DNA from: an uncultured Thermodesulfobacterium sp.
GTDB taxonomy: Bacteria; Desulfobacterota; Thermodesulfobacteria; Thermodesulfobacteriales; Thermodesulfobacteriaceae
Length of the DNA stretch: 64,000 nt
Assembly (NCBI GenBank): GCA_938091335.1
Contig: CALLJG010000001.1
Location: 1 to 64,000 of the forward strand
Reading direction: 5' to 3'
This document shows positions 46,519 through 47,945 of this stretch, piece after piece; the stretch's first letter is position 1; each line of letters begins with the position of its first letter. Made by a program: the position numbers and the translations under genes. Under the pieces are notes generated by a model. That model was not told the origin of the DNA, did not search any database, and worked only from the letters and a program-made list of their open reading frames with translations.

Positions 46519-46553
46519 AAATTTTTAAAAAATTCTAAATTTTTTAAAAAAAT

Positions 46554-46627
46554 CGGGACGTAGCGCAGCTTGGGAGCGCACCCGCTTGGGGTGTGGGGGG
46601 TCGGCGGTTCAAATCCGCCCGTCCCGA
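46554..46627 (+). tRNA. tRNA-Pro (anticodon GGG)
   Basis: Acceptor CGGGACG pairs with CGTCCCG; the anticodon stem CCCGC/GTGGG closes TTGGGGT, and the T loop is TTCAAAT. The anticodon GGG reads CCC/CCT. CCA is not encoded. A run of seven T directly follows the discriminator A, but no separate hairpin precedes it. Confidence 0.92.
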
Positions 46628-46674
46628 TTTTTTTATGTTTTTAAAAGAGCACCTTACCTGGGGGGAGGTGAGTC

Positions 46675-47112
46675 ATGAGAATGATTGAACCTCTTTGTCA
46701 AGTAGAGAAGTTAGAAATTACCTCTACTCCGCATGGTGCTCTTAAACGAAGTATTTGGAATTATCACCTTATTGTAGAATTTTGGAATTCTCCTTTTGAG
46801 GTTTTGGCTAAAGCAAAGTATATTGAAAAAACTCTTAAATCTGCCTTAAAAAATTCTGAGAAAAACCATTTCTTAAGGGCTATTAGTTATCAGTTTAAAC
46901 CTTTTGGTGTTTCAGCTCAAGTAAATTCTGGAAATGTGCATATTTATATTCATACTTGGCCAGAAAATGGATACTCTGCTATTGATATAATCGCAAAAGA
47001 TAAAGACAAAGCTTATGAAATTTTGGAAAAATTAAAAAAATCTTTAAAACCTAAAAATGTATATATAGCTGAAATAATAAGAGGAATTTCAGAAGATTGG
47101 GGTGAAACTTGA
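46675..47112 (+). CDS. SpeD-like protein lacking the catalytic serine and cysteine
   Basis: A 145-residue homologue of class 1B S-adenosylmethionine decarboxylase. HLIVEF at 31, FKPFGVSA at 74, HIYIHTWPENGYSAID at 89-104 and the end pattern match SpeD closely. But in active enzymes the Ser of ESH is self-cleaved to make the pyruvoyl group, and here that position is V88 (NVH); the catalytic Cys 20 residues later is K108. The spacing to His93 and K108 is exactly that of Ser63-His68-Cys83 in the Thermotoga enzyme. So canonical decarboxylase activity is unlikely. The N-terminus has about 24 extra residues. A strong GGGAGGTGA precedes the ATG. The stop overlaps the TTG start of speE. Confidence 0.85.
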   Translation: MRMIEPLCQVEKLEITSTPHGALKRSIWNYHLIVEFWNSPFEVLAKAKYIEKTLKSALKNSEKNHFLRAISYQFKPFGVSAQVNSGNVHIYIHTWPENGYSAIDIIAKDKDKAYEILEKLKKSLKPKNVYIAEIIRGISEDWGET

Positions 47113-47945
47113 CTGGATATTTTTGGTGGAAAGAAAAAATTTTTAAAGATTTTGGACACGCCTATAAGGTTGAATTAGTTTTTGAAGAGAAAAATTTACA
47201 AAAAATTCAAATATTTAAAAATTCTTTTTGGGGTTATATTTTTGTTTTAGATGGAATTGTTCAATTTACAGAAAGAGATGAATTTATTTATCATGAAAGT
47301 ATTGTTTATCTTCCTACAAGCCTATTAAATTCTTCTCCGGAAAAAGTCCTTATTATAGGTGGAGGAGATGGAGGAGTTTTGAGAGAACTTCAAAAAATAC
47401 CTTCTATAAAAGAAATCCTTCAATTTGAAATAGATGTTCTCGTTTTTGAAATCTCTCAGAAATATTTTTTTAAACTTTCTGGAAATTATAAAGATCCAAA
47501 AGTTTCTTTTATTATAAAAGATGGATTAGAAGGGTTAAAAGAATGTAACTCTGAACAATTTGATCTTATTATTGTAGATTGTACAGATCCAATCGGACCT
47601 GCTAAAACTCTTTATACTTTAGATTTTTATAAATATGCTTTAAAAGCTCTAAAATGGGATGGAATTTTTATTCAACAGGTAAGTCTTCCTATATATTTTC
47701 CAAATATTATAAAAAATTCTTATCCCTTAATAAAATCTATTTTTCCTGAGGTTAAAATAGCTAGAGTTTTTGTTCCTTCTTATGGAGAAGAAATAGCATT
47801 TTTTATAGGAGCTAAGAAACCAAAAGATTGGTTAAAACCTAAACAGACCTTTAAAGGAAAATTTTATTATCCTGAATTGAATCCCTATTATTTCTCTATT
47901 CCTAATACTTGGATTCAAATAATTTCAAATTTTCAGGAAGTCTAA
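47109..47945 (+). CDS. speE: Polyamine aminopropyltransferase (spermidine synthase family)
   Basis: SpeE transfers an aminopropyl group from decarboxylated S-adenosylmethionine to a polyamine acceptor. The cofactor site is IIGGGDGGVLRELQK with FEID on the next strand; the catalytic DCTDPIGPAKTLYTLDFY carries the acidic residues that bind the amine; the N-terminal lid contains FVLDGIVQFTERDEFIYHE. It has 278 residues. The acceptor (putrescine, agmatine or spermidine) cannot be told. The TTG start overlaps the stop codon of the SpeD-like gene, so translation is coupled. Confidence 0.9.
   Translation: MTGYFWWKEKIFKDFGHAYKVELVFEEKNLQKIQIFKNSFWGYIFVLDGIVQFTERDEFIYHESIVYLPTSLLNSSPEKVLIIGGGDGGVLRELQKIPSIKEILQFEIDVLVFEISQKYFFKLSGNYKDPKVSFIIKDGLEGLKECNSEQFDLIIVDCTDPIGPAKTLYTLDFYKYALKALKWDGIFIQQVSLPIYFPNIIKNSYPLIKSIFPEVKIARVFVPSYGEEIAFFIGAKKPKDWLKPKQTFKGKFYYPELNPYYFSIPNTWIQIISNFQEV

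Follow-up and report, generated by a model that had tools for sequence, protein, structure and literature searches.

The window, a stretch of 64,000 nucleotides from contig CALLJG010000001.1 of an uncultured Thermodesulfobacterium sp. (GCA_938091335.1), encodes a homologue of SpeD, the S-adenosylmethionine decarboxylase (AdoMetDC) of bacteria, from which both the pyruvoyl Ser and the catalytic Cys are absent. We infer that this protein, called D here, remains unprocessed and serves as a half-subunit, joining a second SpeD homologue of the same genome, called A, to build an AdoMetDC site, and we give this pairing and its division of labor a probability of about 0.5. D would no longer be able to catalyze through its own pyruvoyl group and would be the non-catalytic partner of A in a heterodimer. 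From its own chain, A would give the pyruvoyl Ser, the Glu preceding it, and the proton-donating Cys, and across the interface D would give the Phe that stacks on adenine, the Ser and His needed for processing, and the Glu that binds ribose. The A:A dimer would remain an arginine decarboxylase, and the A:D dimer would be the AdoMet decarboxylase that supplies SpeE and other users of decarboxylated AdoMet (dcAdoMet). It is tentatively suggested that D is in this way a specificity subunit, with A acting on arginine as a homodimer and on AdoMet in the pair with D, the substrate-binding residues being supplied across the interface.

D matches the Pfam family AdoMet_dc at 83.4 bits (cut-off 25) and scores 73.2 bits against the NCBIfam AdoMetDC equivalog TIGR03330, just below the cut-off of 75.65. 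An alignment by phmmer to SpeD from Thermotoga maritima (1tmi) places D residues 30-141 on residues 6-117 with two single-residue gaps, one on either side of the catalytic region. V88 of D falls at Ser63, H93 at His68, K108 at Cys83, and N87 at Glu62 (T. maritima numbering is used from here on), in agreement with the first-pass annotation, which had described a SpeD homologue with both catalytic residues replaced. Across 57 distinct orthologues of D, this description holds throughout for Cys83, which is found in none, and in 50 of 57 for Ser63, which seven retain; Ala is present at position 63 in 33, and V, I, L, T, or M in the remainder. V88 and K108 are themselves not fixed, as position 63 is mostly Ala and position 83 is variable. 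Glu62 is present in only 3 of 57, and Ser63 and Cys83 never occur together. The D protein of one further genome (L269, from G255), read after the residues were counted, has Ala at 63 and Ser at 83. Sequencing error, the other source that had been considered for V88 and K108, is ruled out by the 57 distinct orthologues.

The residues that D keeps are as telling as those it has lost. Phe49, Pro51, Ser55, His68, Trp70, Glu72, Asp79, Arg112, and Gly113 are invariant in all 57. When D is compared with 19 reference positions, each conserved in at least 90% of 27 AdoMetDC-type SpeDs (a set from which L045, L056, and L066 were left out as aberrant), it has lost Gly5, His47, Glu62, Ser63, Thr82, and Cys83 and retains the other 13, 12 of them in 57/57 and Tyr75 in 56. 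We take Ser55, Phe49, and Glu72 of T. maritima SpeD to function in processing, adenine stacking, and ribose binding, respectively, and the residues of human AdoMetDC to be numbered Ser229, His243, Glu247, and Cys82. That Ser55 and His68, which act in self-processing, are invariant although D mostly lacks Ser63 is the strongest single argument for a half-subunit that completes the site of A. D could instead be an AdoMet decarboxylase in its own right by way of another residue or a different cofactor, as its place in the AdoMetDC slot beside speE and the seven copies with Ser63 might suggest. This is highly improbable, as Cys83 is absent from 57/57, positions 62, 63, and 83 hold varied residues with no new conserved residue or nucleophile, and the T. 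maritima S63A structure (1tmi) is titled non-processing, Ala being the commonest residue at 63 in D. Cleavage at Ser85 of the window copy was considered and rejected, since this residue is not conserved in the orthologue alignment. The cofactor-free enzyme with a new activity proposed in the first-pass annotation likewise finds no support, there being no new conserved residue at 62, 63, or 83.

Bacterial SpeD is described as a half-enzyme, with two halves set opposite one another as a sandwich (PMC5201418). Eukaryotic AdoMetDC is made up of two fused halves, the N half carrying the pyruvoyl Ser and the Cys and the C half carrying the His for processing and the Glu that binds ribose, and the bacterial enzymes combine residues of both, according to PMC1282579. 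Judged by its retained and lost residues, D keeps the contribution of the C half, mostly without that of the N half. In Trypanosoma brucei AdoMetDC, the inhibitor contacts listed in PMC5201418 include C100 at the pyruvoyl side and, from the opposite side, Y243 and S249; the spacing of these last two (six residues) is that of Phe49 and Ser55, F74 and S80 in D. The D model aligns (VIA-align) with residues 155-318 of human AdoMetDC, but this alignment alone is weak evidence, because archaeal SpeDs likewise align best with the eukaryotic C half, as PMC1282579 describes. Overall, D is probably a free-standing bacterial parallel of the inactive half of human AdoMetDC. It has the half-fold and residue split of the C half of the eukaryotic class 2 enzymes (human, potato), but it is a free polypeptide whose putative partner is of the arginine-decarboxylase type. 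With the class 1b SpeDs (T. maritima 1tlu/1vr7, Aquifex aeolicus 2iii) it has in common the AdoMet_dc domain and fold, His68, and Ser55, and it differs from them at the pyruvoyl Ser, gone in 50/57, and the catalytic Cys, gone in 57/57.

The proposed partner, A, is found at G000:C5:74682-75017 on the minus strand, on a different contig of the window genome from D, next to an agmatinase gene. A is 151 aa long, consists like D of a single domain, and has the ESH motif, His68, and Cys83. It is the sole AdoMet_dc homologue with intact residues found in this genome, out of two homologues in total; a search of this Pfam family for another intact AdoMetDC found only A (assembly 92% complete). A would therefore be the sole source of a pyruvoyl group among the SpeDs. 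In 48 A proteins, Glu62, Ser63, and Cys83 are present in 48/48 and Phe49, Pro51, and Trp70 in 0/48. Of the 19 reference positions, A has lost Glu11, His47, Phe49, Pro51, Trp70, Ala77, and Thr82, so that only His47 and Thr82 are lost in A and D alike. D thus keeps F49, P51, H68, W70, and E72, and A shows much of the complement, which favors a site shared between the two. The rows for these counts and for the tree described below were selected on score together with a motif whose last residue is Glu72; this motif dropped 0/103 D hits but 12/81 A hits, and the set of 48 therefore under-represents variation at Glu72; over 81 distinct A, this position is Glu in 65, Asp in 13, and Leu in 3. AESH..H is matched by 84/84 A loci, being the pattern used to select them, and Cys83 is present in 81/81 distinct A.

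A is probably an arginine decarboxylase rather than a plain AdoMetDC, to judge by its genome context. SpeDA, a pyruvoyl arginine decarboxylase derived from SpeD, is described in PMC10407285, and A resembles it in keeping Ser, His, and Cys, in an adjoining agmatinase or SpeY gene, and in the lack of another arginine decarboxylase found in the genome; D, in contrast, is itself without the catalytic residues. By the logic of that paper, adjoining agmatinase marks A as an arginine decarboxylase. Pro51, present in 0/48 A, may correspond to the Pro gamma of PMC10407285, a Pro that AdoMetDC conserves and SpeDA lacks. In genome G073, A adjoins both 1,9-bis(guanidino)-5-aza-nonane synthase and agmatinase, that is, users of agmatine. 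In the window genome, no pyruvoyl-dependent arginine decarboxylase was found, no OKR_DC match was above cut-off, and the sole PF02784 match is LysA; with two AdoMet_dc homologues in total, A is thus the sole candidate found for arginine decarboxylation. A further active speD elsewhere in the genome had been predicted by the first-pass annotation, and A does bear the Ser, His, and Cys, though it is probably not the plain AdoMetDC that was expected. Two observations can be added here. Phage sequences LR756501 and LR756503 carry an unannotated SpeD, in a 735-kb phage, that is 54.5% identical to A over residues 13-133; the phage relatives of A reach this identity at most, and none is linked to an assayed protein. 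In addition, several relatives of the window genome, which itself has none, encode a LysA/FslC-like decarboxylase (L085, L086) that is below all NCBIfam cut-offs and adjoins a likely ATP-grasp gene.

In the order, represented by the window genome and 35 further genomes, D is present in 33, A in 31, and both in 30, with neither found in G003 and G034. G003 is of the same genus and 93% complete, with no AdoMet_dc match and no SpeE of the D-linked type. Among 395 genomes of the phylum, D is present in 33, all of which also have A; 17 belong to the order and 16, a second lineage, to eight other families. The second-lineage matches score 117-146 bits, and the next matches at most 94 bits. Named contigs of this second group are metagenome-assembled genomes labeled Deltaproteobacteria or Thermodesulfobacteriota. 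No D was matched in 50,697 phage records at E 1e-5. A tree built from 135 SpeD homologues puts the 57 distinct D into a single clade (UFBoot 100), whose long branch lies within the AdoMetDC-type SpeDs and separate from A; this points to one origin and long retention. D is under purifying selection, with a ratio of nonsynonymous to synonymous substitution rates (dN/dS) of 0.039-0.165 in eight pairs, in keeping with the earlier view that the gene is conserved and not decaying; for A, the same eight genome pairs give 0.003-0.068. That D evolves faster than A, and that one genome (G186) has D without a recognized dcAdoMet user, could mean that D is kept for a role unrelated to polyamines or is a slowly decaying relic. 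We consider this improbable, since D arose once, has persisted in eleven sampled families, is under purifying selection, and is coupled to speE.

The pattern of polyamine genes suggests that D takes the place of an AdoMetDC. In the window genome, the users of dcAdoMet are two SpeE-type enzymes and BpsA, the latter occurring in 17/17 D genomes of the order and 0/16 of the second lineage. Genes were cross-tabulated over 78 A-bearing genomes of the phylum, with a SpeE match called strong at a threshold of 1e-50 that was set after viewing the values, which leave a gap from 1e-30 to 1e-56. In the 22 genomes with A but no second AdoMetDC-type SpeD, SpeE is strong in 1, weak in 12, and not found in 9, and SpeY is present in 21. 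In the 23 genomes that have A and a canonical second SpeD, strong SpeE is present in 22 and SpeY in 9. The 33 genomes with A and D resemble the latter, with strong SpeE in 32 and SpeY in none, so that strong SpeE occurs in 54/56 A genomes with a canonical SpeD or D. Fisher's test gives p = 1.3e-10 for strong SpeE in genomes with a canonical second SpeD against those with none, although the genomes are related; the contrast is also seen within families (6/7 vs 0/5 in f9 and 3/3 vs 0/1 in f53). A alone therefore does not, as a rule, accompany strong SpeE, and D occupies the AdoMetDC slot. A search of the 33 D genomes with PF01536 (class 2 AdoMetDC) gave no match, but the control search was also matchless and absence is not demonstrated by it.

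All 23 canonical second SpeDs were read, and each has Phe49, Pro51, the pyruvoyl Ser, His68, and the Cys. Two others, A-like or degenerate on reading, were not counted as canonical: L255 from G052, with VESG and HTLSE, and L256 from G108, which keeps ESH and the Cys and has HGNLN for HTFPE. The canonical SpeDs of f9 and f53 (L259-L263, L265-L268, L257) have QSH for ESH and GVT for GVS (Glu62 to Gln, Ser55 to Thr), with Ser, His, and Cys kept. Elsewhere, L224, L227, L230, and L231, all from one family, are SpeDs with ESF or ESY for ESH, possibly another impaired SpeD; Cys83 is replaced by Ser in L224 and L227, and speE is located 3' of L224, L230, and L231, none being found within the short stretch of L227. 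His68 is replaced in the SpeD-like proteins L056 (G040) and L067 (G019), which read IATWPE and NASTWPE, and L056 has a lipoprotein-like N-terminus and neither the pyruvoyl Ser nor the Cys.

A distinctly unlikely alternative is that A is bifunctional, acting on both arginine and AdoMet, and that D is an allosteric activator, a stabilizer, or a sensor of SAM or dcAdoMet. The precedent for this is the trypanosome prozyme, which like D is a dead AdoMetDC paralogue accompanied by a paralogue with catalytic residues, and which is reported to activate AdoMetDC about 1000-fold (PMC5201418). The prozyme, however, is a two-halved class 2 protein that relieves auto-inhibition, and D is a 145-aa single class 1b half. 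A bifunctional A would agree with its score above the AdoMetDC equivalog cut-off, but 21/22 related genomes with A and no second AdoMetDC-type SpeD lack strong SpeE, and F49, P51, and W70 are present in 0/48 A. Furthermore, a pure regulator need not retain the processing Ser and His.

The gene for D is translationally coupled to speE, as had been noted at first. The frame is open, with an ATG start preceded by a GGGGGGAGGTGA ribosome site, and there is a 4-nt overlap between its TGA stop (47110-47112) and the TTG start (47109-47111) of speE, the two being separate open reading frames. In the window's order, speE follows D in 33/33 loci. In the second lineage, D of all 16 genomes was read and speE follows in 12. 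This arrangement raises the main rival explanation, that D is a SpeE subunit, a dead SpeD that aids assembly of the aminopropyltransferase or holds dcAdoMet for SpeE. Human spermine synthase (3c6k) has an N-terminal domain of SpeD-like fold preceding its aminopropyltransferase, and D would be its unfused counterpart, the human domain being fused and D and SpeE being separate. We regard this as unlikely: SpeE already has its own N-terminal domain (Pfam Spermine_synt_N), the invariant self-processing Ser55 and His68 are left unexplained, dcAdoMet would have no source with A as an arginine decarboxylase, and D is kept in four genomes without an adjoining speE found (L160, L232, L233, L269). The regulatory partner of SpeE put forward in the first-pass annotation is possible in the same way but is not favored by the residue pattern, because the invariant residues are those that the inactive eukaryotic AdoMetDC half lends to the pyruvoyl site. 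The resemblance of A to an arginine decarboxylase makes it more likely that D joins A to form a complete AdoMetDC.

Several further points weigh against a heterodimer of A and D. Seven D proteins keep Ser63, and A scores 81.7 bits, above the NCBIfam AdoMetDC equivalog cut-off of 75.65. The losses in A are common to the A proteins of genomes without D, so that complementarity of A and D need not mean pairing, and A in D genomes has no clear D-specific change except at residues 12 and 90. The SpeE and SpeY contrast is phylogenetically non-independent, weak SpeE-profile matches (1e-17 to 1e-30) occur in 12 of the 22 A-only genomes, and G301 combines A and strong SpeE with no second SpeD identified and one weak D-profile match (4.5e-7). 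Within the order (36 genomes), D was found without A in G011 (70% complete), G023 (90%), and G035 (76%), and A without D in G030. No speE was found beside D in 4/16 second-lineage genomes (G350, G133, G186, G255), the stretches covered being 1.3-1.5 kb on either side of D in L160 and 1.6-1.7 kb downstream in L232, L233, and L269. Finally, G186 (L233), with both A and D, has no SpeE, SpeY, or BpsA match.

Coordinates are collected in Table 1. Immediately 5' of D there is a tRNA-Pro (GGG) gene at 46553-46628 on the plus strand, and in some second-lineage loci the frame 5' of D also runs through an apparent tRNA. At its C-terminus, D ends in a conserved Glu/Asp-Thr (47104-47109). The ribosome site of speE was considered as the full cause of this [ED]T and is insufficient, as the pair is kept in L160, L232, and L233, where no adjoining speE was found.

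Table 1. Positions of D, its key codons, and neighboring features in the window (residue counts from 57 distinct D).
Feature	Position	Strand	Details
D, free-standing class 1b SpeD homologue, pyruvoyl Ser and catalytic Cys absent	46675..47112	+	145 aa, P0001
Ribosome-binding site GGGGGGAGGTGAGTC, 5' of D	46660..46674	+	sequence
F74 codon of D (T. maritima F49)	46894..46896	+	F in 57/57
S80 codon of D (Ser55)	46912..46914	+	S in 57/57
V88 codon of D (pyruvoyl Ser63 position)	46936..46938	+	A33 S7 V4 I4 L4 T3 M2, n=57
H93 codon of D (His68)	46951..46953	+	H in 57/57
E97 codon of D (Glu72)	46963..46965	+	E in 57/57
K108 codon of D (catalytic Cys83 position)	46996..46998	+	Cys in 0/57
speE, aminopropyltransferase, TTG start	47109..47945	+	Pfam Spermine_synt_N and Spermine_synth, both domains

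A pseudoenzyme partner of AdoMetDC is already known in trypanosomes, as are degraded SpeD domains in bacterial fusions, those of V. vadensis and D. latus being described in PMC10407285. The SpeD-SpeDC fusion of that paper is like D and A in joining a non-self-cleaving half of SpeD fold to an active half, and such fusions precede speE. There, however, both halves are encoded in one open reading frame, the dead half is regarded as an ornithine decarboxylase that has degraded, and the active half is a true AdoMetDC; D and A are at two loci, the dead half belongs to the AdoMetDC branch, and the active half is of the arginine-decarboxylase type. A literature search that lacked most subscription journals and supplements found no bacterial case of a dead SpeD standing alone. 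There is a risk for annotation in both proteins, as A scores as an AdoMetDC though it probably makes agmatine and would be mislabeled automatically, and D resembles SpeD yet, going by its residues, would not be able to finish catalysis by the known route. Free-standing D, present in eleven sampled families, would be a simple natural system for the change of a homodimer into one active and one dead half, which is the step thought to lie behind eukaryotic AdoMetDC. If the favored mechanism is true, substrate choice would be made through swapping in a dead partner, and two steps of the pathway would share one catalytic chain, balanced by the choice of partner.
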